Shown here: positions 2,226-30,580 of the stretch, one piece after another | How the letters are laid out: each line of letters opens with the position of its first letter | How positions within the stretch are numbered: the first letter of the stretch is position 1 | From: a virus | Length of the DNA: 30,580 bases | Reading direction: 5' to 3' (one strand) | Virus record (IMG/VR): IMGVR_UViG_3300047409_000325 | Span: 1-30,580 of that record | Program-made: the position numbers and the translations under genes | The notes under the pieces: model-generated | The model's input: the letters and a program-made list of their open reading frames with translations, nothing else | Databases searched by the model: none | Told to the model about the DNA's origin: nothing

Positions 2226-2581
2226 AGCCGGCCCCGTAAATGTCGGGCTTTCCAGCGTTCGCACCGGATCGCTTTCGCGACGGCGTCACTGTCGTACGGC
2301 ACGTGGTACCGCGCACACAGTTGCTTGACGTCTTCGGCGAGGTCGGCGTCGGGCCGATCGGGTGCCGAACCGATCAGGTCGCGACTCAGGCGGGCGATCA
2401 CGGGCACGATCGATCGGGTGGGTTTTAGGTTTTCCACAGGCCACCCGTGCACGCCGGTTTTTGGCGTGCACTGTTCTTTCGTACAGAGGATCGGGATAGG
2501 GATAGGGATCGCGCGCGCGCGAGTCCTAGAGTTGTCCGCGTGGACAGAACGCGGACGGCATAAGCTGTGCCACTCACGCAT
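2222..2581 (-). CDS. Replication-linked protein with Ile-Pro linker
   Basis: A 119-residue protein whose N-terminal third is low-complexity (RTRARAIPIPIPI), encoded by tandem hexamers. Its C-terminal half is a plausible helical domain (DLAEDVKQLCARYHVPYDSD). The ATG at 2581 overlaps the stop of the winged-helix gene as ATGCGTGA. Ile-Pro or Pro-rich linkers of this kind often follow the winged-helix domain in phage replication proteins, so this may be the separated second half of one initiator, produced by reinitiation. The start is the least certain part. A candidate origin lies inside it. Confidence 0.6.
   Translation of the reverse strand: MREWHSLCRPRSVHADNSRTRARAIPIPIPILCTKEQCTPKTGVHGWPVENLKPTRSIVPVIARLSRDLIGSAPDRPDADLAEDVKQLCARYHVPYDSDAVAKAIRCERWKARHLRGRL
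2430..2521. other. Candidate replication origin
   Basis: Within 92 bases there is TTTTCCACA (2430-2438, 8 of 9 to the DnaA box TTATCCACA). Next comes a perfect 9-bp inverted repeat GTGCACGCC/GGCGTGCAC (2447-2455 and 2463-2471, 7-base loop), then four tandem hexamers of the form GGATMG (2488-2511) and a CG run. Phage origins lying inside or beside the initiator gene are well known (lambda O is the model). The elements are seen; the origin role is inferred. Confidence 0.45.
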
Positions 2582-2942
2582 TCGCCCCTTTCTCTTTCCG
2601 TTCCAGTCGTTTCCGCGCTTTGTCGCGCCGCCGTTTGGCCTTGATGTCGGAGGCCAGCGGGTTGCCGAAATCGGCAAAGTCGTGGATCAAAAACCCGCTG
2701 CCGTTGCGTTCCCAGAGCCCAGCCTTAACGAGCGCGTCAGCGACGAAAGCCGGGTTATCCACATGCCGAAAACTCTTCACGATCACCAGGGGCAAATGCC
2801 CGTCCGTCAAATGCTTGTTACTCCACATGAGGCCCACGGCGTAGAACCCGAGGGCGATCGCCGCGCCGTTTTTCCCGATCAGTTCGCCAGCCGCGAACAC
2901 TTTGCAATGGTCGATCAGTTCGTCGTCGAGACGTGCCCACAC
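2574..2942 (-). CDS. Winged-helix replication-type phage protein
   Basis: A 122-residue protein beginning MWARLDDELIDHCKV from a GTG at 2942, six bases past the previous gene's stop. The opening, the central GFYAVGLMWSNKHLTDGHLP segment and AFVADALVKAGLWER follow the pattern of N-terminal winged-helix domains of phage replisome-organiser or DnaD-like proteins, which bind DNA and help load the helicase. The C-terminus is strongly basic (KAKRRRDKARKRLERKEK). A perfect DnaA box lies inside the gene and the candidate origin just after it. In length this looks like only the first domain, with the next gene possibly carrying the rest. Confidence 0.7.
   Translation of the reverse strand: MWARLDDELIDHCKVFAAGELIGKNGAAIALGFYAVGLMWSNKHLTDGHLPLVIVKSFRHVDNPAFVADALVKAGLWERNGSGFLIHDFADFGNPLASDIKAKRRRDKARKRLERKEKGANA
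2755..2763 (+). promoter_or_regulatory. DnaA box (perfect consensus)
   Basis: TTATCCACA on the plus strand matches the bacterial DnaA box exactly. It lies inside the winged-helix gene, about 320 bases from the hairpin and hexamer cluster. A single 9-mer can occur by chance, so its weight comes from the company it keeps. Confidence 0.45.
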
Positions 2943-2946
2943 GTCG

Positions 2947-3171
2947 TCAGCTCCCTCTGACCTGGCGTTCGCAGCCCGCCGGGACGCCGAACAGATCCCA
3001 CCCGGGCGACTCGTTCCCGCACACCTCGCACCGCAAAAAGATCCGCGTCGGCCGGTCCACGCGTCGCCAGGCGTGCCCGCGCCGGCAGGGCCGCCACGTC
3101 CACACGTCATGCAGGCAGATCCCGCCGACGAGCATCAGCCACGTCACCACCTCGGCGGCAATCAGCCTCAT
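2947..3171 (-). CDS. Membrane-anchored zinc-ribbon-like protein
   Basis: A 74-residue protein. An N-terminal hydrophobic helix (EVVTWLMLVGGICL) is followed by a Cys/His-rich part: CRRGH, then CEVC about 25 residues later, giving a plausible zinc ribbon. The ATG at 3171 overlaps the upstream stop as ATGA. Topology and partners cannot be told; it belongs to a run of small overlapping genes between the Cas4-like nuclease and the replication protein. Confidence 0.6.
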   Translation of the reverse strand: MRLIAAEVVTWLMLVGGICLHDVWTWRPCRRGHAWRRVDRPTRIFLRCEVCGNESPGWDLFGVPAGCERQVRGS

Positions 3172-4622: not shown

Positions 4623-5110
4623 GGCCGGCTCCGCTTGCGTGCGGCGTCCTGGGCGAGAATCCATCGGTCGTCGTTGTCGTCAACAGGTAGCGCCGCCGTC
4701 GCCTGTTCCCGCTTGCGAAATTCGTAGAGCATCGCGGCGAGGTTGATCAGTTTGCCGCGCGTCGGACAGCTGCCCTCGTTACAGGCGCGGTCTTTCGTCG
4801 TGACGTGCTCGAGCATGGAACGGAGATGCTCCGTCGGAACGATCAGCGAAATATCGGATCCGGCGATGACAAAGGCCCACGCGTGGGCCGTCGTGATCGA
4901 AATCCCGGAGGGTTGATAGACGCCGGCGCGGCCTTTGTCGCAATGCGTCTCGACATAGAACGCGAGGTCGTAGTAGCCCTTGCGTTTGACTTCCACGCGG
5001 CCATTCCCGGCCGCGATCCAGTCGAGATAGGTGCCGATCAACAGTTCGCCCTGTTCGCCCTTCTTGACGTCCAGGTCGAAGCGCGGCTCGGCCTTGCGTG
5101 CGCGGTTCAC
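4619..5110 (-). CDS. PD-(D/E)XK endonuclease-like protein
   Basis: A 163-residue protein. A helix with Glu19/Glu22 (KKGEQGELLIGTYLDW) precedes VEVKRKGYYD (Glu40-Val-Lys42), followed by a strand and SGISITTAHAWAFVI. This order of acidic helix, ExK strand and alpha/beta core resembles small PD-(D/E)XK nucleases, including Holliday-junction-resolvase-like and restriction-type enzymes. The C-terminal part has CNEGSC and a helical tail. It starts at GTG 5110, overlapping the methyltransferase stop as GTGA. The tight coupling to an adenine methyltransferase raises a restriction-modification possibility; a recombination nuclease is equally possible. Confidence 0.6.
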   Translation of the reverse strand: MNRARKAEPRFDLDVKKGEQGELLIGTYLDWIAAGNGRVEVKRKGYYDLAFYVETHCDKGRAGVYQPSGISITTAHAWAFVIAGSDISLIVPTEHLRSMLEHVTTKDRACNEGSCPTRGKLINLAAMLYEFRKREQATAALPVDDNDDRWILAQDAARKRSRP

Positions 5111-6105
5111 GACGCCACCGCCGAATCGGGTTCGTTGCTGTCGTGCGTCCAGCCTGGCCGATCGCCGCGGCTGAACATCTCGAGGCGTTCACGTTCGCCG
5201 AACGTCGGGTACATGGCCTCGAGGAGGTCGTAGACGATGGCGGGCTTTTCGCTATGGCCGGATCGTTTGGCCCGAATGACGGACGAGACGCGCGCGCTCG
5301 GCGCCGGCACGGGGAGCGCCCCACGGGCGCCGACCAGGAGCAGTTCGTGCTGCTGCCGAAAGTAGTAGCCCATGCCGATCGTTTCCTTGTCCCAGACGGC
5401 GCACGTCCGATAGAGAAAGCCCCAGTCCTCGAGGACGTGCATCGCCTCGGCGAGCTTCGGACTGGTGGCCCAGAGAAACAGCACGGCGTCCTCGGCCGCC
5501 GGCGGCACCCGGGCGCAGATGTCCTCGAGCGCCATCGTCGGGTACTGGTTCTCGATCGCGCGGTTCTCGGTTTCGATGTGCTCGTACTGCCACGGCGGAT
5601 CGGCGTAGATCAGCCGGAACACACCAGGCGGCAGGGCGCGCGGCGGCCGCGCCGCGCGCGTGATCACGCGGTCGCCTTCGCGCAGGAGATTGGTCGTCAC
5701 GCGGTCGTGTTCGCTGAGAATCCGGCCGCGCCATTGTTCGATCAGGTCGTCGAATTCGGCGGCCGGGAGTTTCGCAAGGCGGCGCGCGTGATTGGCTAGG
5801 TGTTTGTCGATTCCGGCGTCATCGAGCGTCGGCCGATCTACTTGGGTCCGCTCGGGACCTAAGTCCGTACGCTTGCCCTGCGCAAGGCCGACGGTGTCTT
5901 TTTGTTTTTTGATCAGTTCGCCGATCCGGCGTTCGGCACGGAGGCGAATTTCTGCGGCGTCGAGCTCGAGCTCTTTGTTTTTCGCTTGGCGCGCGAAGGC
6001 GCGCATCGCCTCGGCGGTGTTGCGGATCTTCGTCGCCTCGTTGACGCGCGTCGCCTTCGCCAGGGCGCGGCACAGGGCGTCGTACTGTGCGAGCTGGACG
6101 GCCAT
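5107..6105 (-). CDS. MT-A70 family N6-adenine methyltransferase
   Basis: A 332-residue protein. The first 150 residues are helical and charged (a ParB-N or DNA-binding-like region with KATKIRN-type repeats of basic helices). The catalytic domain follows with the DPPW motif at residues 169-172 (LIYADPPWQYEH), then AVLFLWATSPKLAEA and RSGHSEKPAIVYDLLEAMYP, the MT-A70 pattern for S-adenosylmethionine binding and target adenine. Phage MT-A70 enzymes methylate phage DNA, commonly to evade restriction. The gene starts directly after the previous TAG (TAGATG). The recognition site cannot be read from the protein. Confidence 0.9.
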   Translation of the reverse strand: MAVQLAQYDALCRALAKATRVNEATKIRNTAEAMRAFARQAKNKELELDAAEIRLRAERRIGELIKKQKDTVGLAQGKRTDLGPERTQVDRPTLDDAGIDKHLANHARRLAKLPAAEFDDLIEQWRGRILSEHDRVTTNLLREGDRVITRAARPPRALPPGVFRLIYADPPWQYEHIETENRAIENQYPTMALEDICARVPPAAEDAVLFLWATSPKLAEAMHVLEDWGFLYRTCAVWDKETIGMGYYFRQQHELLLVGARGALPVPAPSARVSSVIRAKRSGHSEKPAIVYDLLEAMYPTFGERERLEMFSRGDRPGWTHDSNEPDSAVAS

Positions 6106-7575: not shown

Positions 7576-8169
7576 ATGAAACTGGTTAGCCTTGACGCCG
7601 CGCGACTCACTCTGAAGAATCGGAGTGTGAACAAGCCGAACTTGGCCGAGACGATCCGCACCGCGCGCGCCAAACAGCGCTTAACGCGCAAAGCGTTTGC
7701 GGCGCACGCCGGCATCACGACCAACACGTTGCGCGCGCTCGAAAACGGCACGCACGCACGCCTGCCCGACGTGCTGACGTTGCAGAAAGTCGCCGAGGCG
7801 CTCGAGCTCTCAGTCGACCAGTTGCTCGCGGGCGAGTCGCAACCGCAGGAACAGGCGGGCTTGCACAAGGAAGACTGGCGGATTGCGCGGGCCTATCACG
7901 ACTCGATCGCCGACGTGAAGGCGGCCGTGAAAGCGCTATTGACTGGCGACCATCAGGAAGACGCGCTCGAGCAGATCGCCGCCGTGCTCCAGCACCTCTT
8001 GCGCTTGGATCCGCAGCTGCGCGCGGACGTCGTCGCGATGACCACGATCGCCGCGACCGACGCACCGGGGATGGCGCTGCTGCACGATTGGATGCGGGAA
8101 AAACTGCAGCCGGCGCAAGAGACGCCGCAGCCGCGGCGGAATCTCAAGCGCCGTCGTGGGACTGAATGA
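7576..8169 (+). CDS. CI-like phage repressor (HTH, no protease domain)
   Basis: A 197-residue protein with an XRE-type HTH domain at about residues 23-85 (the turn spans KAFAAHAGITTNTLRALENG), then an acidic linker and a helical C-terminal domain rich in Leu/Ala (EQIAAVLQHLLRLDPQLRADVVAM), ending in a basic tail. There is no LexA-type serine protease domain, so induction is probably not by RecA-stimulated self-cleavage. It diverges from the Cro-like gene and is the natural lysogeny repressor. An in-frame GTG at 7627 is an alternative start because no strong Shine-Dalgarno precedes the ATG. Confidence 0.8.
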   Translation: MKLVSLDAARLTLKNRSVNKPNLAETIRTARAKQRLTRKAFAAHAGITTNTLRALENGTHARLPDVLTLQKVAEALELSVDQLLAGESQPQEQAGLHKEDWRIARAYHDSIADVKAAVKALLTGDHQEDALEQIAAVLQHLLRLDPQLRADVVAMTTIAATDAPGMALLHDWMREKLQPAQETPQPRRNLKRRRGTE

Positions 8170-9005: not shown

Positions 9006-9469
9006 CGTGGTCCATCCCCCACACCCTCGGCGGCAAGCTGCTGCTCGGCGTCGCCGCCGCGGCCGCCGCCACCGCCTTCTGGACCGGCGTCTGGGGCGTC
9101 TGGGTCCTGACCGGGCCGCATCCCGTCCTCCGCGCCTGGGCGCCGTCGGGGTATTTCGCCTCCCCCGAGCCGGCGCCCGTCCTCCGCACGCTAAATGTGA
9201 CGGTCGGCTGGAATGCCGCGATCGTCCGCATCACCAACAACAGCCCCAACGCCGTCGGCCAGCCGATGGAAATCTACCTGAACGGGCAGCCGCCGTCCGC
9301 GTTCCGGGCCGACACGACGGTGCCGCCGCAGGGGCAGGCCGTCGTGCTGCCGTTGAGCCAGTTTGTGAATCGGGACGGCGAACGCTTTAACCCGGTCACG
9401 CGCGGCGTCACGGTGGTGTGGGTCGGCGGCGGGAGCTACGACTTCCAAAGCTTCGGGCGAAGGAACTGA
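9002..9469 (+). CDS. Membrane-anchored protein coupled to the toxin-antitoxin pair
   Basis: A 155-residue protein. Residues 10-36 form one transmembrane helix (GKLLLGVAAAAAATAFW then GVWGVWVL). The rest looks like a beta-sandwich outside the membrane (LNVTVGWNAAIVRITNNSPN, then PMEIYLNGQPPSAF). It has no family I recognise. Its ATG overlaps the brnA stop (ATGA) and its own stop lies three bases before the integrase ATG, so it sits in one operon with brnTA and int. Expression from the lysogen and an anchored exported domain suggest superinfection exclusion or host envelope modification; this is inference. Confidence 0.75.
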   Translation: MTWSIPHTLGGKLLLGVAAAAAATAFWTGVWGVWVLTGPHPVLRAWAPSGYFASPEPAPVLRTLNVTVGWNAAIVRITNNSPNAVGQPMEIYLNGQPPSAFRADTTVPPQGQAVVLPLSQFVNRDGERFNPVTRGVTVVWVGGGSYDFQSFGRRN

Positions 9470-9471
9470 TT

Positions 9472-10533
9472 ATGGGCGTCTACGCACGGAAAGACTCACC
9501 GTTCTGGTGGTATCAGGTCGAGGGGACGAAACAACGCACGAAGACCGAGTTTCGCGTCGGCTCGACCAGCACCGAGCGGAAGGACAGTAAGAAACTCGCC
9601 GAGGCCGTGTATCTGCGCGCGCAAACGGCGCACGCCACGCGCCGGCACCGGCTCCCGATGCCGCTGCAGGAGAGCCTGTTCAAGGCGTACGCGAAAGCCT
9701 ACGAGCCCACCCTCGCGGGCCATCGCGGCGCCGATCGCGAGCGCGAGCTGCTCAAGCCCCTGCTCGCCTTCTTCGGCACGATCCCGTTGACCGCGATCGA
9801 CCGGGACTTCGTCAGTCGCTACCTACAGCATCGCCTCAAGGCCGGCGTCGCGGCGAGCACCGCGAACCGGGAAGTCGATCTGCTCAAGATCATGCTGCGC
9901 GATGCGGCCCCGAAGTATCTGGACGTGTCGCCGCTGGTCGGCATGAAGCGCCTGAAGAGCGCGGCCCGGCGGCGCCGCACGTTGAGCCACGCCGAAGAGA
10001 CGCGCCTCCTGACGGTCGCCACGGACCCGCAGGACCACGCGCTGCTCGTGCTGGGGATTGACACCCTCGTCCGCCTCGGCGACCTCCTGGACGTCCAGCG
10101 GGGCGACCGGGAAGGCATCTGGCTCGACATCCGCCACACCAAGAACGGCGAGGCCCTCCGCGTGCCGCTGACCGCGCGGGCCGAACAGGCCCTCGACGCG
10201 ATCCCGGACACCGGCCCGTACTACTTCGCGAAGTTCCGCCGCGCCGAAAACCCGCGCGACTGGCGGAGCTCCGTGAATCAGCGGCTGCAGTACCTCTGTG
10301 CCCGCTGCACCCCGCCGGTCCCGTTCGGGCTCAAGGCCGGGGTGACGTTCCACGGCGCCACCCGGAAGACGGGCGCCACCCGCCTGGCCGTCGAGCAGCG
10401 CCAGCCGCTGTCGGCCGTGCAGCGCCTGGGCGGCTGGAAGGATCCGACGATGCTCATCAGCATCTACAACGAGGCCGACGAACACGCCCTCCTGAAGCTC
10501 GTCGGGCGCACGCCCAAACGTAAACGCGCCTGA
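9472..10533 (+). CDS. int: Tyrosine-family phage integrase
   Basis: A 353-residue integrase. It has an N-terminal arm-binding part (MGVYARKDSPFWWYQVEG), a core-binding SAM-like domain at about residues 65-160, and a catalytic domain from 165. Catalytic residues seen: Arg201 (TLVRLGDLL), Lys224 (HTKNG), His294/Arg298 (TFHGATRKTGATR), Trp322 (GGWKDPT, Trp where most have His, as in Cre), Tyr332 (ISIYNEA). The HxxR box has one extra residue and Lys where the usual second His stands. GAAGGAA precedes the ATG at 9472; an upstream in-frame start would run into the previous gene. attP follows directly. Confidence 0.93.
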   Translation: MGVYARKDSPFWWYQVEGTKQRTKTEFRVGSTSTERKDSKKLAEAVYLRAQTAHATRRHRLPMPLQESLFKAYAKAYEPTLAGHRGADRERELLKPLLAFFGTIPLTAIDRDFVSRYLQHRLKAGVAASTANREVDLLKIMLRDAAPKYLDVSPLVGMKRLKSAARRRRTLSHAEETRLLTVATDPQDHALLVLGIDTLVRLGDLLDVQRGDREGIWLDIRHTKNGEALRVPLTARAEQALDAIPDTGPYYFAKFRRAENPRDWRSSVNQRLQYLCARCTPPVPFGLKAGVTFHGATRKTGATRLAVEQRQPLSAVQRLGGWKDPTMLISIYNEADEHALLKLVGRTPKRKRA

Positions 10534-22621: not shown

Positions 22622-23035
22622 TCAGGTCTCCGTGACCATGAACCCGGCCGACTGGACGAGCGCGATGAGCGCGGCCTTCATCGCGGCGCGATGCCGTTTC
22701 GCGATGCCGCCCAGACTCTTGTCCTTGTGCGCAGGTTCGGCGCCACGGTTCCAGCCCTGTTGCGTGTGCCGGTTCTGCGTGCCGTACTCCCACCACCCCG
22801 CTTCCTTCGTCGGACTCTGCACGACGAAGCGCGCCTGGTACTGGTGACTGCGATCCGCGACCTTGACGGCGTCGGCCATCGGTCCATCGGGATAGACGCC
22901 GCGGAGCTCGCTCGCCGTGTCCTCGGCCGCCGTCGCGACGATCGCAATCGCGTCGTTGGTCAGCTCGTCGGGCATGTCCCGCAGCGCCTTCCGCAGCTCG
23001 TCGAGGCCGTCGAGGAACACGTTCACGCTGCTCAT
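22622..23035 (-). CDS. HK97 gp10-like head-tail joining protein
   Basis: A 137-residue protein: NVFLDGLDELRKALRDMPDE, TAAEDTASELRGVYP, then WWEYGTQNRHTQQGW and HRAAMKAALIALVQ, matching the HK97 gp10 (minor tail/neck) family with its E-x-GT motif. ATG 23035 overlaps the upstream stop as ATGA. Confidence 0.85.
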   Translation of the reverse strand: MSSVNVFLDGLDELRKALRDMPDELTNDAIAIVATAAEDTASELRGVYPDGPMADAVKVADRSHQYQARFVVQSPTKEAGWWEYGTQNRHTQQGWNRGAEPAHKDKSLGGIAKRHRAAMKAALIALVQSAGFMVTET

Positions 23036-23436
23036 ACGGCCGCTCCCGCCGAGAGCACGCTCGACCCGGCCGCCCCGCCGCTCACCCGTTCCTCGCAGAC
23101 GATCTCGAGCTGGATGTTCCGCTCGTCGACGTTCCGTACGGCCTGAATCGCGAAGGTCCGGCCGTCGAACGTCACGCGCGTCTGCGTCGTCACGCCCGGC
23201 ACGTACGGGACGACCATCAGGTACGGCAGCAGCGCCGTGACGGTCCCGGCGACGACGCGGCGCAAGTCGGCGGCCGATGCCGGCGCGACGCTGCCCCAGA
23301 CGGTTTGCAGCAGCACCCAGCCCTCGATAAACCCGCCATCCCCATCGGGTACCGATCCGCCGGGATTCTCGAGGGTGACGGGATGCTGGCGCCGGCCGGC
23401 GGGCATCCACGCGTGGTCGGGCGCGGCGGGACTCAT
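23032..23436 (-). CDS. Head closure protein (SPP1 gp16-like)
   Basis: A 134-residue beta-rich protein: RQHPVTLENPGG, WGSVAPASAADLRRVVAG, RVTFDGRTFAIQAVRNVDER. This is the phage head-tail joining barrel (stopper) layout, and position after gp6-like connector fits. It plugs the portal after packaging. Confidence 0.85.
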   Translation of the reverse strand: MSPAAPDHAWMPAGRRQHPVTLENPGGSVPDGDGGFIEGWVLLQTVWGSVAPASAADLRRVVAGTVTALLPYLMVVPYVPGVTTQTRVTFDGRTFAIQAVRNVDERNIQLEIVCEERVSGGAAGSSVLSAGAAV

Positions 23437-23765
23437 GCGATCCCCGGGTCGTGATACGCGCGCAGGAGTTCGCGGACGGTGACGTTCAGATCGTCGCCGT
23501 CCGGTGTACGGACCGGCCCGTCCGTGTCATCGCCGCGGAAGCGATACAGTTCGCCCGTTTGCACGAGGATGGCCGCGACGACGACCGGCGGGACGGAGGT
23601 CGCGTCCCAGGCATCGGCGACCGCTTTGGCGCGCGGCGTCGTACTGCACCAGCCGCGGATATGCGCCTCGGCCTGGTCCGCGAGCAGCTGGACGTCGGCA
23701 TCTTCCGCGGTCGACGTGATCCGCAGGCGCGCTTTGACCTGGGCGAGCGTCACAAACGTCGACAT
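23433..23765 (-). CDS. Head-tail connector, gp6-like
   Basis: A 110-residue helical protein: LAQVKARLRITSTAEDADVQLLADQAEAHI, then VVVAAILVQTGELYRFR. This is the gp6/gp15-like adaptor that forms a ring below the portal. Its ATG overlaps the upstream TGA (TGATG). Confidence 0.88.
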   Translation of the reverse strand: MSTFVTLAQVKARLRITSTAEDADVQLLADQAEAHIRGWCSTTPRAKAVADAWDATSVPPVVVAAILVQTGELYRFRGDDTDGPVRTPDGDDLNVTVRELLRAYHDPGIA

Positions 23766-24379
23766 CACCGCCGCCTCGTGTCGTCGTAGACCTGTTGCCA
23801 GTCTTTGCCGGCCGGCCCGGGCGGACCCTGGACGCCATGCTTGCCGTCGACGCCGCGTTTGCCGTCCCGGAGCAACAGCATCCAGCAGTCTTTGCCCTGC
23901 GGCCCGGCGGCGCGGCCGTGCTCGAACGTCCCGCCGTCCGGCGCCAGGGCCGTCGCCGTCTGGCAATGCCAGAGCGCGCTCTTGTACCGGACGATATTGC
24001 CGGGCGTGTACCCGCGGCCGGCGTCGAAATCCCCGACGAACGTCCCGACCGGGAACGTCACCGTCCCGATCGTTTTGATCACGTCGCCGCGGATGGCCTT
24101 GAGCGTCACGGTCGTCGCGTCGAGTTGCTCGAGCGCGAGGTCGTCGAACCCGACGCCGTCGACGCCGTCGCGGCCGGCGGGACCGGTTGGACCGGGGACG
24201 GGCGCGCGCGTTTCCAGCACGGCCAGGCGTTCCCGCATCGTGCCGAGGTCGGTCACGGCGCCCGCGAGGCCCTCGAGCCGGGTATCGGTGACCGCCAGAC
24301 GCGCCAGGACCGGCGCCAGGGCGGTCTGCATCGAGTCCAGGACGAGATCGGCGAGGGCGTCGGCGTCAGGCGGCGGCAT
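23765..24379 (-). CDS. Collagen-like virion protein with sugar-binding-type module
   Basis: A 204-residue protein. A helical N-terminus (residues 8-58) leads to collagen-like Gly-x-y (GPTGPAGRDGVDGVG, 63-77). A module at 110-160 (YTPGNIVRYKSALWHCQT, then DGGTFEHG) resembles the small carbohydrate-binding modules common beside portal genes. A second Gly-x-y run follows (GKRGVDGKHGVQGPPGPAGK, 173-192). It overlaps the portal gene by 14 bases. Likely a trimeric surface decoration; the sugar-binding reading rests on pattern. Confidence 0.7.
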   Translation of the reverse strand: MPPPDADALADLVLDSMQTALAPVLARLAVTDTRLEGLAGAVTDLGTMRERLAVLETRAPVPGPTGPAGRDGVDGVGFDDLALEQLDATTVTLKAIRGDVIKTIGTVTFPVGTFVGDFDAGRGYTPGNIVRYKSALWHCQTATALAPDGGTFEHGRAAGPQGKDCWMLLLRDGKRGVDGKHGVQGPPGPAGKDWQQVYDDTRRR

Positions 24380-25799
24380 GGGTCCACCGTTCACGCGCCT
24401 TGCGGCGAAGGGCCAGACCGAACGCGGCGAGGAAGTCCGGCTCGATCGATTGACTGATGGCCGGGGCGGCGACCGGCGCCGGCCGCGGTTTGGCAAACGG
24501 ATCGTTGGCGTCGCGGGTCGCCAGGGCCTCGAGGCTGAACATCTGCTGCTGCATGTACGGCGTATTGCCGCCTTTTACCCGGCCGAGGCCGAAGTACTTC
24601 CGGCGCGCTTCATCGGGCGACATGCCGCCGCCGCCGATGCCGTCCTTCGCCGCGGCGGTCTTCGTCGCCGTGTCCATCCAGATGAGATCGTCGATGTCGA
24701 ATTCCGTGCCGTACTGCCGGCCGTCCGGCAACGGATCGAGAATGCCGAGGCCGTCGTCGAGGCTGGTTTCGAAATTCGTCATCAGCGACTGCAGGCATTG
24801 CGCGAGGTACTGCTGGAGCATTGGTTCGACGTTGGCGTACGGCGGCGGCGGCCCGACGCCAATCATGTACGGCTGGACGTGGTAACAGCTGCAAACCGTT
24901 TCGGCCGTCCATTTCAGTTGGTCAATCAACTGTGCGTCAACGGCATTCATCGTCAGCGGTTGGTATTTCAGGTCGCCCGTGATCGCCGCGATCTTGCCGG
25001 CATTTTCGACGCCGTTGCTGGCGTCCCAGTTCGTTTTGACGTCGGCGAGCTGTTCCTTGGTCATGCCGACCGGCCCGATGAGGAGCGCGCTCGGCCGGCT
25101 GCCGTTGGCGAAGAACTGGCCCGAGGCGTTCTGGATCGCCAGGCCCTGCATCGCGGCGAGGCCGCACGCGAAGATCGGGGACACGCCCACGAGCGGATGG
25201 AACAGGCAAATCATTTTGTCGTGGATGATTTCCCGCGCCGGGACGATGATCGCATCGGTCGGCAAACCGGCGAGGTCGCCCGACAAATCATCCCGCCGCA
25301 ATTCGTAGTACACGCCACCATCCGGCGCGACCAGCGGTTTGACGCGCGACGGATCGAGCACATACAACGCCACGACGACGCCGCGCGCGTCGCGCTGCTT
25401 CAGGACGTACGTGTTGCCCCAAATCAATTTGGAACTGATCCAGTGCTCGACGAATTTATTGATCGTCTGGTAGCGGTTCGGTTTGCGGAGGACGGGCGAG
25501 AACGCCGGCGATGACGTCGGCTGCCAGATGTCCTCGTCGGTCCGTTCGACAAGTTGCAGACACAGCTTGCCGATATCCGAGGCGATGAGCGTCACGCAGG
25601 AAAAGACCGCCGAGTACGCGAGCGCCAGGTCGCGCCGGCCTTCGACGTTGACCTGCCACGCGCCGGCATACGGTTCGCGGACGACGAGCGGAAACCAGCC
25701 GCCGCGCGTGCTGTCGAGGCCATTGGGCGCCGTCAGCGGCGCGGCTTTCGCGCTCAACTCGAGCGATCGCCCGAACAGGTGCACTCGGACCGCCGCCAT
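24366..25799 (-). CDS. Portal protein (HK97 family)
   Basis: A 477-residue protein. It has the phage portal (HK97) pattern: AYSAVFSCVTLIASDIGKL, WISSKLIWGNTYVLKQRD, VVALYVLDPSRVKPL, IIHDKMICLFHPLVGVSPI, FFANGSRPSALLI and AETVCSCYHVQPYMIG. It forms the dodecameric DNA channel. It lies downstream of the capsid gene, unlike the usual order. Confidence 0.93.
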   Translation of the reverse strand: MAAVRVHLFGRSLELSAKAAPLTAPNGLDSTRGGWFPLVVREPYAGAWQVNVEGRRDLALAYSAVFSCVTLIASDIGKLCLQLVERTDEDIWQPTSSPAFSPVLRKPNRYQTINKFVEHWISSKLIWGNTYVLKQRDARGVVVALYVLDPSRVKPLVAPDGGVYYELRRDDLSGDLAGLPTDAIIVPAREIIHDKMICLFHPLVGVSPIFACGLAAMQGLAIQNASGQFFANGSRPSALLIGPVGMTKEQLADVKTNWDASNGVENAGKIAAITGDLKYQPLTMNAVDAQLIDQLKWTAETVCSCYHVQPYMIGVGPPPPYANVEPMLQQYLAQCLQSLMTNFETSLDDGLGILDPLPDGRQYGTEFDIDDLIWMDTATKTAAAKDGIGGGGMSPDEARRKYFGLGRVKGGNTPYMQQQMFSLEALATRDANDPFAKPRPAPVAAPAISQSIEPDFLAAFGLALRRKARERWTHAAA

Positions 25800-25800
25800 A

Positions 25801-26385
25801 TCAGCTGCGGCGGTCGTCGTGGATGATTTCGCTGCGAGCCGGCGGCCGCCCGCCAGGCGTCTGGCCGTACGCGGGACCGCGGCTGCCCTCGCGGGCGGTT
25901 TCCGTAAACGTGAACGGGACCGGATTCGACAGGTTGCCGCCCGCGCGCACCTGGACGGGGACGGTCGCCGCCGCCTGCCAGACGGCCATGTTCACGCCGG
26001 TCGTGAGTTCCGTGTCATCGACGACGGTCGTCGGTTCGTCGTAGCCGTTCCAGACGATGACGCTGTCCGGCGTGAACCCGGTCCCGCGTACATGCACGGT
26101 GAAATCCGGCGCGCCGATCGCCACGGTGGCCGGCGTCAGCGCCGTAATCTCGGGCGCGACGATCGCGCCGTCCGTCCACCCTTCGATCGACACGAACCCG
26201 ATGCCGCGGAGCGTTTCGGCGAGCGCGCGATTGCTCACGGCGTACGTCTCGCCTTCAGCATGGGCGACGCCGTTTTCGGTGTGATACGTCCGGGCGGTCA
26301 CGTCAATCGAATCGCCGGCCGCCGCCTCGCGCCCCGCGCCGACCCGGTCCGGTTTGCGCGTTTCCTGCCGTGCGTTACCGGCCAT
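25801..26385 (-). CDS. IPT/TIG-domain virion protein
   Basis: A 194-residue protein. Residues 80-160 form an IPT/TIG immunoglobulin-like domain (ITALTPATVAIGAPDFTVHV, then GTGFTPDSVIVWNGYDEPTT). The N-terminal 80 residues have a separate alpha/beta look and the C-terminus is disordered. Such domains decorate phage capsids and bind cell surfaces. It overlaps the preceding small gene by 11 bases. Likely a capsid decoration or head-associated protein. Confidence 0.75.
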   Translation of the reverse strand: MAGNARQETRKPDRVGAGREAAAGDSIDVTARTYHTENGVAHAEGETYAVSNRALAETLRGIGFVSIEGWTDGAIVAPEITALTPATVAIGAPDFTVHVRGTGFTPDSVIVWNGYDEPTTVVDDTELTTGVNMAVWQAAATVPVQVRAGGNLSNPVPFTFTETAREGSRGPAYGQTPGGRPPARSEIIHDDRRS

Positions 26386-26560
26386 GTTTTTTCTCCTTCA
26401 GGGTCCGCGGCGCATCGCTGGCGGACGGCACGACGACGGCGAACTTCGCGAGTTCGAGCGTCGGGACGTGTTCCGGCTCGACGAGGATGATGTCGCCCGC
26501 GCGCGGGTACTGGCCGTCCCAGTACCCGTCACGCTGCACGGTCATCGCGATCCGATCCAT
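26375..26560 (-). CDS. Small head-region protein
   Basis: A 61-residue protein between capsid and IPT genes (VQRDGYWDGQYPRAGDIILV). Beta-strand-rich with a basic tail. No family recognised; a head minor protein is plausible from position. Confidence 0.6.
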   Translation of the reverse strand: MDRIAMTVQRDGYWDGQYPRAGDIILVEPEHVPTLELAKFAVVVPSASDAPRTLKEKKHGR

Positions 26561-26566
26561 GTCGGA

Positions 26567-28462
26567 TCAGGCCGCGTACGTCGCTACGGTGTACTGGACG
26601 ACGCCCGCGCGGGCCTTCTTCCAGTTGATAAAGCGTTCGGCGCGGAGGCCGACGAGGTTGTTCTGCCAGAGGGACGTCAGGATGGACGTCGCGACCAGCG
26701 GATTGTCGAGGACCGTGTCCATCTGGAGCGACGCTTCCCGGCTGACGTCGATCGTCACGCCGCCGTCATCGGCGTAGAGGACCTGGCCCGGCTGCACCAG
26801 CGCGACCGTCGTCCCGGCGGCCTGCGAGGTCACCGCCTTGTAGCCCATGATCGTGCCGCCGTCCTGCGCCATCCCGGGGAACAACGGTTGGCCGAGCGGA
26901 TTCAGCGCGTTGACAAACGCCAGCGCGTTGGTCTCGGACAGGATCAGCACGGCGCCGGCCGTCGAGATGTTGAGCGCCGTCATCGCGTTCGCCATCGCCT
27001 GAATGTCCGTCCGCGCATTCGCGGGCGTCGGACCGGCGGACGTGATCGGCGCCACGCCGTTGGTCACTGACCCGGGCGATACGCCCGCTACCGCGGCGGC
27101 GGCCGGATCGATGAACTGCTGATCGAGGAATTGCGCGATGCCGGCGATCATGTCGCGCCGGATGACGTCTTCCGCGGAGGGCGTCGACGTCCGCGCGAGC
27201 TCCTCGGTGATGACGATGATGCCCGCCGCCTTCGTAATGCCGAGCGTAATGGTCGCGAACGCGAGCTTGCCCACCGGTTTGGGCGCGCCCTGGCCGACCC
27301 ACTGGTACGTGCCGCCGCCGGTCTGCGACGCGACCGACACGTTGAACGGGACCGGGATGAACCCCGGGACCTTGCCGAGAATCGTCGCCGGCCGCAGTAA
27401 GGCGATGAATTCGTTGGTCATCGGTTTCATCGGCGCGAGCGGACCGGCCCACGTGGCATCGGTCGTCGTGCCGGCCGCGACGGCGGCCTTGAGCAGCAGT
27501 TCGACTTCCGGCGTCGAATCCTGCCAGCGTTTCGCGTACTCGACCGCCTGGAGCGTCGACCCCTTCGACACGGCGAGCGCCTGGCAATACCGGATAAACG
27601 CCGTCGCGGGCGGGACGTTGGCTTTGACCGTGATGATCGGAAGGCCGCCCCGCTGTTTGCTGGCGTCGTCCGCAGTGGCCGCGACGATCGGCGTCGCCTT
27701 CGCGACATTCGTCGCCTCGAGGGCGTGGAGGCGCACGAGATGCGCGTCGGTCGCCTTCAATTTGGTATCGAGGCCGTCGTATTCGTCGGTCTCGGCCTGA
27801 TCGAGCGACTCGCCGGCTTCGGCGGCCTTCGTCATCAGCGCCATCATTCGCGCGTGCGTCGCGGCGCGGCTGTTCTCGAAATTCGTGATCTGCTCGTTGA
27901 TGGTTTTCTGTTCCATGTGCGGCGCGCCCTTATCGACGCGCACGATCGGAAGGGTGTCCCTGTCGCGGGACGGATGACGGCCAGGCGCGGCCAGGTCGAG
28001 CGCTTTGATCGTGTGAATGGTCGCGCCGGCATTGGCCGGAATCGCGACGAGCGAGAGTTCGAGGATTTCCGTTTTCAGGAACCGGAACCCGCCGGTCTCT
28101 TTGCTGAAGGCCTCCTCGAGCGACCGGAAGCCGATCGAGACGCCGGCCAGGAGGCCGGCCTTGATGCTCTGCCAGGCCTCCTCGATGCGGTCGCGCAGCG
28201 GCCCCGGCTCCGCGAGCGTCGGCAGGCTGGCGGTAAATTCCAGGCCGTCCGCGGTCGGTTTCTTGAACGTGACCGTCCCGACCGGTTTTTTCGTGTCGTG
28301 GTACAGCAGCAGCGGGAGCGGATTCTTGTAGGTAATACCCAGCGGTTCGACGACGTCGCCCATGCGATCGGGTTCCGGCGTCGTCGCGATGCCGGCGATC
28401 GTCCGTTGATGGGTATCAACGGCCTTGATGGTCAGCAGGGCGTACGCGCGCGTCAAGGGCAC
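26567..28462 (-). CDS. Fused prohead protease - major capsid protein
   Basis: One 631-residue frame. Residues 1-160 are an HK97-type serine protease: LLLYHDTKKPVG (His55), LAGVSIGFRS (Ser109), LELSLVAIPAN. Residues 183-260 are a coiled-coil scaffold-like delta region beginning MEQKTINEQITNFE. From about 300 follow HK97-fold capsid features (WAGPLAPMKPMTNEFIALLR, GGTYQWVGQGAPKP, ITEELARTSTPSAEDVIRRD). An ATG at 27916 could start a separate capsid product, but its ribosome site is weak. GTG start at 28462. Fusion and autocleavage are known in some phages. Confidence 0.88.
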   Translation of the reverse strand: MPLTRAYALLTIKAVDTHQRTIAGIATTPEPDRMGDVVEPLGITYKNPLPLLLYHDTKKPVGTVTFKKPTADGLEFTASLPTLAEPGPLRDRIEEAWQSIKAGLLAGVSIGFRSLEEAFSKETGGFRFLKTEILELSLVAIPANAGATIHTIKALDLAAPGRHPSRDRDTLPIVRVDKGAPHMEQKTINEQITNFENSRAATHARMMALMTKAAEAGESLDQAETDEYDGLDTKLKATDAHLVRLHALEATNVAKATPIVAATADDASKQRGGLPIITVKANVPPATAFIRYCQALAVSKGSTLQAVEYAKRWQDSTPEVELLLKAAVAAGTTTDATWAGPLAPMKPMTNEFIALLRPATILGKVPGFIPVPFNVSVASQTGGGTYQWVGQGAPKPVGKLAFATITLGITKAAGIIVITEELARTSTPSAEDVIRRDMIAGIAQFLDQQFIDPAAAAVAGVSPGSVTNGVAPITSAGPTPANARTDIQAMANAMTALNISTAGAVLILSETNALAFVNALNPLGQPLFPGMAQDGGTIMGYKAVTSQAAGTTVALVQPGQVLYADDGGVTIDVSREASLQMDTVLDNPLVATSILTSLWQNNLVGLRAERFINWKKARAGVVQYTVATYAA

Positions 28463-28483
28463 GCGCCCTAGCCTACGGTCGGG

Positions 28484-28690
28484 TCAGACTTTTGGGCGTC
28501 CAAAAAGCCGTCGCTCGTGGTAGTCGGCGACGTATTCGTTGACAGCCTCCCGCAGAATCCCGGCGACTCCGGTCCGGTTCTCGCTGGCGACGCGACGGAG
28601 TTCGAGCCGTTGTGCGGGCGTCACGCGCAACGAGACCCGCTCGGTCGCGGATGTGTCGGCGATCGGCGGACGCCCGGTACGTTTGCTCAT
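28484..28690 (-). CDS. Ribbon-helix-helix protein
   Basis: A 68-residue Arc/MetJ-type protein: TERVSLRVTPAQRLELRRVA then GVAGILREAVNEYVADYH. It sits between terL and the capsid fusion; GAAGGGAG before the ATG is within the end of terL. A DNA-binding regulator here is out of place and could control late genes. Confidence 0.8.
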   Translation of the reverse strand: MSKRTGRPPIADTSATERVSLRVTPAQRLELRRVASENRTGVAGILREAVNEYVADYHERRLFGRPKV

Positions 28691-28702
28691 GGCGGTCTCC
28701 CT

Positions 28703-30541
28703 TCAGCCCAGGACCATCATCGAATACGTCGGCGGCGCCGCGACCGGCGTCAGCATGGCACTCATCGCTTGCAGAATCGCGTCGATCCCGTCGATCTTGT
28801 TCGGCGATTCCGGGCCCTCTTTCTTCGGCAGGATCGAATCATCCACGCCACGCGTGACGACGACGTTACTCGCCATCCACTTGAGGCACGGGTTCCCGTC
28901 GTGCCGGAACCGGTGATGCTTCACGCGCGCCTCGAGCTCGCGTGCCGGCGGCGTAAACGACTTGCGCGACTTGTCGAGAATCGCCGCCGGGAATCCATCA
29001 CCGGCCAGGCTCGAGACGATGCCGGCCGAGCCGTACTGGTCGAACCGCAGGGCCGCGACACTGAACTGCCGACACCAGGCGCGCACGTCGGCCTCGATCC
29101 GCCCGTAGTCGATCATCGTGCCGTCGGTCATCTCGAGGATTCCAGCCTTCACCCAACCCAGATACGCGGGCACCGTGCGCGCGCGTTCGGCGACGACGTC
29201 CCGCGGCAGATAGCACTTCACGAACGCCACGATGTCGCCGGCCCGCTCGAACAACAACGCGACGGCCGCGAGGTCGTCGGTCTGCGCCAGGTCGCCCCCG
29301 AGCCAGCACCGCTGCCCGGCGAAGTCCTCGAGGCGCAGCGTCTCGTCCGCGCACGCATCCCACCGCGCCATCGACAGCCACGCTTTGGCGCTCTGCAACC
29401 ATTCCGAACAGACCTTGACGCGGAATTCCCCCTCGAGGCCGGGCGTCAACTGCGCGTCCGCGCAATACGCCTGCACCCACTCGCGCGTCGGCGTCACGCC
29501 GATCATCGGGTTCGCCTTCTCCCAGACCCGCGCGTCGCGCCAGTCGTCGCCGTCATCGAGCGTGTAGATCAGCCCGAAGAAATGCTCGGCGTCGAACACC
29601 TGTTGCAGCACTTTCGTGAGCGTCGTGCGCAAGGCGTAGCCGACCGACAGCAGGTCGTACCCGGCCGTCGTCGGACAGAGCATCAGCGGATTGATGCGCG
29701 CGCCCTGCGCGGATTTCAACACGTCATGCAACGCGAACTTCTGGGCGTGACTCTCGTCGAGCACGATGCAGCTCGGGTTCAGCCCGTCCTGCGTCGACGC
29801 CTTCGCATTGACGGGCTTGATCGAGCCGTCCACGGTCACGATGGCGTTGGCGAGCGCCTGCAAGCCCTGCCCGCGCAACCAGGGGGACCGGGCGACCATC
29901 CGCTGGGCAATGCCGAACACAATCCGCGCCTGGCTGCCCGTCGTCGCCCCGCAGACGACCGAGGCGCCAGGCTCGTGTTCCTTCAGCACGTGAAACAGCG
30001 CGATGCCCGCCATCAGCGTCGACTTCGCCGCCTTGCGCCCGATCTCCAGATACCAGGTCGTGAACCGCCGACGCGCCAGGTGCGCCCGATGCCGCCACCC
30101 GAATAGGCACGAGACCCAGAACACCTGGCACGGCGCGAGCCCGATCGTCTCGGTCGCCCAGCGCCCCTCGACGTGCGGCAGGCGCTCGAGGAACGCGCAG
30201 GCCTCCATCGCGTGCGCGTCGCTCCACACATACGGCCAGGTCGGATCCGTCGCCGCCCGCATCGCGTCCCGGTCCTGCCGTTCACAGGCGAGCTTCACCC
30301 ACTGACACGCAGGAATTTTGCCGCTGAGGACATCGGCCCGGTACTGCTGCGCGACCTGCCCGTAATCCTGTCCGGATGTCCCCGGCACCGGGATCGGACG
30401 CTTGCGCGACCGTCGGCCGACCCGTTGCTTTCCCGCCTGGAAGGTCCCGCGCCGCGCCTTCTCGGCGTCGCTCACCCGCGGGCGCCCGACGCGCCGCTTC
30501 GTGCGCTTCGTTTGCTTCTTCCGCCGCGCCTTCACGGGCAT
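28703..30541 (-). CDS. terL: Terminase large subunit
   Basis: A 612-residue protein. Walker A at 168-175 (GRKAAKST), Walker B at 258-263 (CIVLDE), nuclease acidic residues in WLGGDLAQTDDLAAV and NKIDGIDAIL. It packages DNA into proheads with the portal. The first 60 residues are very basic with a GRPRVSDAEKAR segment resembling the start of P27-type small terminases. No separate small subunit precedes it in the window. It is the first gene of the late operon. Confidence 0.93.
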   Translation of the reverse strand: MPVKARRKKQTKRTKRRVGRPRVSDAEKARRGTFQAGKQRVGRRSRKRPIPVPGTSGQDYGQVAQQYRADVLSGKIPACQWVKLACERQDRDAMRAATDPTWPYVWSDAHAMEACAFLERLPHVEGRWATETIGLAPCQVFWVSCLFGWRHRAHLARRRFTTWYLEIGRKAAKSTLMAGIALFHVLKEHEPGASVVCGATTGSQARIVFGIAQRMVARSPWLRGQGLQALANAIVTVDGSIKPVNAKASTQDGLNPSCIVLDESHAQKFALHDVLKSAQGARINPLMLCPTTAGYDLLSVGYALRTTLTKVLQQVFDAEHFFGLIYTLDDGDDWRDARVWEKANPMIGVTPTREWVQAYCADAQLTPGLEGEFRVKVCSEWLQSAKAWLSMARWDACADETLRLEDFAGQRCWLGGDLAQTDDLAAVALLFERAGDIVAFVKCYLPRDVVAERARTVPAYLGWVKAGILEMTDGTMIDYGRIEADVRAWCRQFSVAALRFDQYGSAGIVSSLAGDGFPAAILDKSRKSFTPPARELEARVKHHRFRHDGNPCLKWMASNVVVTRGVDDSILPKKEGPESPNKIDGIDAILQAMSAMLTPVAAPPTYSMMVLG

Positions 30542-30545
30542 ATTG

Positions 30546-30560
30546 CCTGCAACCGACTTA
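30546..30560. repeat. Near-direct repeat, right-end copy
   Basis: CCTGCAACCGACTTA, partner of 5-18. On the minus strand it reads TAAGTCGGTTGCAGG immediately before the terL start and includes its ribosome binding region. Confidence 0.4.
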
Positions 30561-30580
30561 ATCCTCTGTGAAAAACTGCC

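Follow-up and report, generated by a model that had tools for sequence, protein, structure and literature searches.

The 631-codon frame that joins a prohead protease to a major capsid protein in the window (the whole 30,580-nucleotide stretch analyzed here) probably encodes two nested products with a common C-terminus – the complete fusion and a free capsid that still carries its delta (scaffold) domain. Judging from sequence comparisons, it is very likely that the capsid is also initiated separately within the fused frame, at an in-frame ATG (Met183; 27914..27916; all features described below lie on the minus strand). The computed features that bear on this reading are the fused frame itself, a constant gene order, a conserved internal start, a Shine-Dalgarno (SD) peak before it, relaxed mRNA structure around it, and its homology to the start of separately encoded capsids. 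Support for the internal start is strong at the level of the family and suggestive for the window by itself.

The fused frame (26567..28462) opens with a GTG and has a TTG at codon 3. The preliminary description placed protease, scaffold, and capsid in a single 631-residue frame, and this is borne out: Peptidase_S78, the delta helices, and Phage_capsid all fall within one ORF. Pfam identifies an S78 protease at residues 47–152 (41.4 bits, cut-off 21) and Phage_capsid at residues 375–577 (55.2 bits, cut-off 24.2), and the capsid part also matches TIGR01554 (57.5 bits, cut-off 27.5) and has an HK97 fold by Foldseek (9d9w, E 2e-14; HK97 1ohg, E 5.7e-11). The phrog_617 profile covers residues 1–624 of 631 (E 1e-133), and this full-length match, together with the gene order, assigns the locus to the phrog_617/PAJU2-type head modules. 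Scores fell below the curated cut-offs for the NCBIfam HK97 prohead protease TIGR01543 (40 bits, cut-off 59) and for the protease/capsid fusion family NF045541, where the shortfall (41.6 bits against 525) led us to drop the assignment.

Within the frame, a putative protease domain spans about residues 5–144 (28031..28450). Its H55, S109, and E135 are invariant in an alignment of 50 sequences, and we take H55 and S109 to be the conserved histidine and serine of S78 proteases, with a putative catalytic role. A linker (residues 145–182; 27917..28030) that carries the proposed internal ribosome-binding signal is modeled with low confidence (pLDDT <50 at residues 145–184) and is followed by the delta helices (residues 188–255; 27698..27901), with Met183 at the junction of the two. 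A low-confidence segment of the model after the delta helices (residues 273–280; 27623..27646) is a candidate cleavage region, compatible with the cleavage near residues 270–300 proposed in the preliminary description.

To place the window in its family we used 239 sequences – 194 fused (the window included), 42 with split genes, and 3 lacking a protease or capsid. Some loci come from one contig (e.g., L016 and L168), and counts out of 239 or 194, like a 93-row conservation set, are unclustered; the non-redundant set was clustered at 80% identity. Because protease and capsid remain in a single open frame in 194 of 239 sequences, the fused frame is not a chance occurrence. Internal methionines were located in all 194 fused sequences with a delta-domain profile from which the methionine itself was left out, though the profile was built from non-redundant rows preselected for a methionine near the delta domain and so carries a mild circularity. 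It replaced a regular-expression placement that left 7 of 194 sequences unplaced, found the methionine in 170 of 187, and made visible mis-placements.

At the homologous position, 193 of 194 fused sequences have a start codon (189 ATG, 4 GTG), L018 being the sole exception. The non-redundant fused set has 104 ATG and 4 GTG among 108 rows, and ATG occurs in 22.4% of 12-codon control windows. The window's clade (support 97 on the capsid tree, from which L005 and L134 were left off as too short) comprises 63 non-redundant rows, every one of them fused. The ATG is kept in 63 of 63 across branches that sum to 20.7 changes per column; at the 27 positions read from −16 to +11 around the methionine, the commonest residue never exceeds 57%. 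In the split relatives the capsid is homologous to the proposed nested product (26567..27916, delta plus capsid, 449 residues), and 39 of 42 have a methionine at the homologous place. The other three are L134, L138, and L139, the last two with GTG.

Signals expected of a translation start accompany this codon. SD core matches of at least 5 nt precede 41 of 108 internal starts and 37 of 1416 other in-frame ATGs (p 9e-30), and they fall in all three codon phases, 5–13 nt from the start. The anti-SD energy peaks 4–8 nt before the start (−4.97 against a baseline of −0.47). Synonymous shuffling reached the observed mean anti-SD energy in 0 of 200 sets (8 of 200 for the clade alone), though the encoded peptide explains part of the signal (shuffled mean −4.47, observed −5.58) and, row by row, just 11 of 108 reach p 0.05. 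The 40-nt folding energy is −5.6 at internal starts and −10.9 at 1413 other in-frame ATGs (p 7e-44), and 39 split capsid starts give similar values (dG −5.93, MFE −4.21). Since the rows are related, these p-values are too small. Outside the clade, the comparison of structure with shuffles was non-significant for the 45 non-redundant members (27 of 45 weaker, p 0.24). The internal SD outscores every outer candidate in 67 of 106 rows, and in 39 an outer one is equal or better; the other two of the 108 have too little upstream sequence or no outer candidate. Forty portal starts, taken as a positive control, showed neither a strong SD nor open structure (dG −4.12, MFE −10.09), and SD and open structure are thus not universal marks of real starts in these genomes.

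In the window, an SD-like AAGGG (27927..27931; anti-SD dG −5.0) lies 10 nt before the internal ATG, moderate in strength and non-significant alone (shuffle p 0.32). The ATG is the least structured of the eight starts scored (MFE −3.1; GTG −15.4, TTG −18.0), though synonymous shuffles of the region around it are no more structured (−4.7, observed −5.3). The conserved internal start with ribosome-binding signals that marks a nested protease/structural gene is thus found for the family and is non-significant for the window alone. A separately initiated capsid, which the preliminary description had named as grounds against its view of the fusion, is in this way strongly indicated for the family by start codon, SD, structure, and split-gene homology, and is only suggested by the window taken alone.

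We infer from these patterns that both products would be made from one mRNA, initiation at the GTG or TTG yielding the 631-residue protease-delta-capsid and initiation at Met183 the 449-residue delta-capsid. In the window we predict more initiation at the internal start than at the outer one, so most capsid subunits would be free of protease and a minority would have it covalently attached. If the two products co-assemble through the delta and capsid domains they have in common, the protease would enter the prohead with them and there cut away the delta domains and itself. HK97-type heads contain hundreds of capsid subunits, and a covalent fusion poses a problem of stoichiometry if each of them brings a protease; a conserved internal start would let a single gene overcome it and would alter how such genes are annotated.

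The plainest alternative is a polyprotein, in which all capsid subunits are translated as the 631-residue fusion, protease and delta are cut off after assembly, and Met183 is a relic. We consider this unlikely. The open frame in 194 of 239 sequences fits it, as does Pseudomonas phage MD8, whose authors assign protease, scaffold, and capsid to a single gene and note no internal start in the available parts of the paper (PMC8508860). Yet each subunit would then carry a protease into the prohead, and the polyprotein does not account for a start codon, an SD, and relaxed mRNA structure coinciding at one site; retention of the ATG in every non-redundant member of the all-fused clade disfavors a relic of gene fusion.

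It is more improbable still that a structural role in the protein preserves the methionine where the delta domain begins, with SD-like purines that merely encode the linker peptide. The peptide does account for much of the SD energy, but synonymous choice adds to it, the matches are spread over three codon phases, and the same methionine is the likely initiator in 39 of 42 split relatives. Four of the five non-ATG cases among the 194 have GTG, which is also a start codon, although this argument is weak because GTG is a common valine codon. A contig mis-join or assembly artefact, which the preliminary description had named as a way in which its account could fail, found nothing in its favor and can be set aside with near certainty: the order TerL-protease-capsid-portal is identical in all 198 family sequences with all four genes (of 239 sampled, the remaining 41 being incomplete for this count), drawn from metagenome contigs, named phages, and bacterial genomes, and a separate contig of 90% identity (L008) has, among the matches listed, the same neighbors as the window.

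Returning to the two-product reading, nested in-frame products that share a C-terminus with a protease fusion are known from lambda C/Nu3 and herpesvirus UL26/UL26.5. Those two systems encode a scaffold as the nested product, and UL26.5 is made from its own transcript. By Pfam and the structure model, the nested product here would instead be a delta-capsid. Protease and capsid also share one gene in Lactococcus phage c2 (l5) and phage MD8 (gp5), according to the available parts of both reports (PMC6536676, PMC8508860). Both belong to families other than the window's, and MD8, unlike the window, has its portal ahead of the fusion. The c2 gene has an internal ATG preceded by AAAGGAG, and in these two phages, the only ones compared, a strong SD precedes the outer start (c2 TTG −11.6, against −8.7 inside; MD8 ATG −9.3). 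None of the titles and abstract openings we searched mentioned a start for the capsid inside a fusion of this kind, though subscription journals were poorly covered and this does not prove absence.

The preliminary description viewed the head module as rearranged and as the mark of a distinct lineage. Its order – TerL, RHH-like gene, fusion, two small genes, portal – is present as described on the minus strand (ORFs, Pfam), and with the portal after the capsid it departs from the canonical HK97 order, in which the portal precedes protease and capsid. Neither the order nor the fusion is new, however: both occur in PAJU2, JLK-2012, FSL SP-016, and RHph_X2_26. Pseudomonas phage PAJU2 has TerL, fusion, two small genes, and portal (then one gene and a head-tail adaptor), with no annotated gene between TerL and fusion. 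Its "prohead protease fused capsid protein" is 42% identical over 99% of the window's and also has an internal ATG, preceded by CAGGAGGG, though the record annotates the fusion only and no nested capsid. The JLK-2012 and FSL SP-016 fusions (39.7% and 41.1% identity) are followed by one small gene before the portal, where the window has two.

Nor does the fusion mark a lineage, because the capsid tree requires at least 14 switches between the fused and split states, and well-supported branches force at least 10 of them. The split relatives (e.g., Moraxella Mcat1 and Acinetobacter, Caballeronia, and Sphingomonas prophages) share the order but have protease and capsid as separate genes, with a 4-nt overlap in at least 13 of 42. 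Protease and delta domains have also been exchanged inside the frame. An internal start would help explain both patterns. We suggest, tentatively and at somewhat below even likelihood, that fused protease-capsid genes encode two products in several unrelated phage families, the fusion serving as the subunit that takes a covalently attached protease into the prohead; an internal start that keeps the capsid expressible alone would then permit domain swaps and repeated splitting and fusing without loss of function.

The remaining genes surround the fusion. TerL (28703..30541; TerL_nuclease 105.5 bits, TerL_ATPase 79.1; phrog_9, E 2.5e-135) lies 39 bases from the end of the record, which lacks TerS, and no sigma-70-type promoter match was found within 23000–30580. 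The 68-residue RHH-like ORF (28484..28690) is weakly labeled (PF12651 14.4 bits, cut-off 21.6; phrog_876, E 0.003); among the matches listed, it has 52–81% matches adjoining the fusion in many relatives and none in others (e.g., L052, L065, L071, and L076). Downstream of the fusion are a 61-residue ORF with matches in relatives (26375..26560), a 194-residue TIG/choice-of-anchor Z (CoaZ) protein (25801..26385; NF058597 73.4 bits, cut-off 30; Pfam TIG), and the portal (24366..25799; Phage_portal 252.2 bits). The TIG/CoaZ protein is possibly a head decoration.

The minus strand of the window encodes, in order, TerL (30541-28703), a small RHH-like gene (28690-28484), a 631-amino-acid frame (28462-26567), a 61-amino-acid gene, a 194-amino-acid TIG/CoaZ protein (25801-26385) and the portal (25799-24366). 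Within the long frame, S78 prohead protease and HK97 capsid domains both score above their Pfam cut-offs. The open reading frames bear out the head order proposed in the preliminary description, including the single protease-capsid frame and the two small genes ahead of the portal. In an AlphaFold2 model of the frame, the protease domain is followed by a low-confidence linker (145-184), two delta helices (188-216 and 222-255), another low-confidence stretch at 273-280 and then the capsid domain; the model's mean pLDDT of 76.6 and pTM of 0.51 make domain placement uninformative. Foldseek matched the model to the Bxb1 and HK97 capsids. Residues 23-71 of the TIG/CoaZ protein are up to 88% matched in relatives whose TIG part goes unmatched, a pattern that would fit a capsid anchor whose outer domain can be exchanged. 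The gene following the portal (23765-24496) contains a collagen-like stretch and a weak carbohydrate-binding-module match below cut-offs. It also resembles two families labelled portal, phrog_1289 and, in that family's C-terminal part, phrog_2271, and may be fused to the portal in some phages.

Neither the gene order nor the fusion is new. Residues 1-624 of the frame align with phrog_617; phage PAJU2 has the same gene order and an annotated prohead protease fused capsid protein; and JLK-2012, FSL SP-016 and RHph_X2_26 have both order and fusion in common with the window. Fusions involving a protease of another type have been published for MD8 (PMC8508860) and for Paracoccus prophages (PMC6536676). 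A phage collection searched with the fusion yielded 861 matching records, of which 26 span 80% or more of the query.

We compared the window with 238 loci, drawn from IMG/VR, GTDB genomes and phage records, using the best match per gene. The order TerL, protease, capsid, portal was found in all 198 sequences that show the four genes, and none of the remaining 41, which lack one or more of them in the stretch compared, contradicts it. Protease and capsid occupy one frame in 194 sequences and are split in 42 (three are incomplete) – counts that should not be read as natural frequencies, as relatives were chosen by similarity to the fusion (at most 80 per list). A quick capsid tree with 148 rows, 108 of them fused and 40 split, requires at least 14 fused/split changes, at least 10 of which are forced by well-supported branches, versus an average of 35.5 with shuffled labels; the direction of change is not readable from the tree. 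The window falls within an all-fused clade of 63 rows (support 97). In relatives with capsid identities of about 70-88%, the matches listed show TerL identities to the window between 28% and 89% (92% over one short piece), suggesting that terminase exchange is independent of the head module.

In split relatives, the capsid gene has a methionine where the delta domain starts in 39 of 42 cases, and a 4-nt overlap with the protease gene was counted in at least 13 of the 42. We observed that the homologous codon in fused sequences is ATG in 189, GTG in four and neither in one (n = 194). In the non-redundant set, the counts are 104 ATG and four GTG (n = 108), versus 22.4% ATG in control windows, and the clade has ATG in 63/63. 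The four GTG cases weigh little because GTG is a common valine codon. L018 is the only fused sequence without a start codon at this site; three loci with similar matches (L015, L022 and L028) have ATG there.

Across the fused sequences, this internal codon is preceded by a putative ribosome-binding signal. Mean anti-Shine-Dalgarno (anti-SD) energy is -5.58 ahead of it versus -2.60 ahead of 1416 other in-frame ATGs. The signal peaks 4-8 nt upstream (-4.97 at 6 nt, baseline -0.47; -3.79 in the clade, -6.64 in the other 45 fused rows), with a minor bump of -1.5 at 34-40 nt within the range profiled. Synonymous shuffles attained the observed mean in 0/200 sets overall, 8/200 for the clade and 0/200 for the others, and single rows reached p 0.05 in 11/108 cases; the window's own signal, taken alone, was not significant. 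SD matches of at least 5 nt precede 41/108 internal starts versus 37/1416 other ATGs, spread over the three codon phases (15, 17 and 9). The best outer candidate is weaker on average (-4.30 versus -5.62), with the internal signal stronger in 67/106 relatives. Outer starts – assigned by a rule favouring ATG – are ATG in 76, GTG in 26 and TTG in four of 106 fused relatives; the protease start in split relatives is ATG in 42/42.

Folding energy over 40 nt relaxes from about -10 upstream to -5.6 at the internal start and -4.3 at +12, versus a mean of -10.9 at 1413 other in-frame ATGs. Relative to synonymous shuffles, the relaxation was significant across all 108 rows (p 5e-11) and in the clade (58/63, p 3e-11) but not outside it (27/45, p 0.24), kinship among rows making these and the other p-values too small; the window alone showed none. 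Third-position G+C in codons 2-12 is 0.65 versus 0.82 frame-wide (lower in 100/108), and is likewise somewhat reduced in the upstream linker. As controls, the 39 split capsid starts average -5.93 for anti-SD energy (-4 or better in 90%) and -4.21 for folding, and 40 portal starts -4.12 and -10.09, indicating that a genuine start in these phages can lack such signals. Eight starts were scored in the window, and the internal ATG (anti-SD -5.0, folding -3.1) is the one with the least structure; the outer candidates are a GTG (-3.9, -15.4) and a TTG (-5.0, -18.0). These values predict more initiation at the internal than at the outer start.

The best reading of these sequence features is that the head gene would have two in-frame products: a free delta-capsid of 449 amino acids from the internal start (Met183, 27916-27914) and, from the outer start, the full fusion, which would bring the protease into the prohead. 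Nested in-frame products alongside a protease fusion are known from lambda C/Nu3 and herpesvirus UL26/UL26.5; the arrangement here would work alike, except that the capsid protein itself would be the nested product. In another family, the l5 gene of Lactococcus phage c2 has AAAGGAG ahead of an internal ATG at codon 131 (anti-SD -8.7, folding -0.4), but its outer TTG has a still stronger SD (-11.6). The c2 record places the start of the mature protein at codon 206. In MD8 gp5 the outer start is strong (-9.3), and codons 146, 162, 185 and 220 are candidate internal starts. Fused protease-capsid genes of several unrelated phage families might all be two-product genes using an internal start, a generalization toward which we are slightly more doubtful than inclined: c2 and MD8 are two single cases rather than a test of it, and their strong outer SDs speak against any rule of strong inside and weak outside starts in those families, which lowers the probability of the generalization.

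Parts of the frame also appear to have separate histories. Among the window and 37 of 93 near relatives, we identified two protease types. Type B (15 rows) forms one clade on the protease tree (support 97), but the capsid tree needs 10 changes to accommodate it (at least four forced; about 12 with shuffled labels), and the capsid data reject a single type B clade (p-AU 0.0009). Six rows with a foreign delta domain group together on the delta tree and are scattered on the capsid (five changes) and protease (four changes) trees. Both sets were defined after identities were seen, making the p-value indicative only. These conflicts imply that recombination exchanged protease and delta parts within the frame.

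Elsewhere in the window, matches to an integrase (9418-10533), a repressor-like regulator (7576-8169), a replication initiation protein (2574-3110) and a DNA methyltransferase (5107-6105) suggest a temperate phage.
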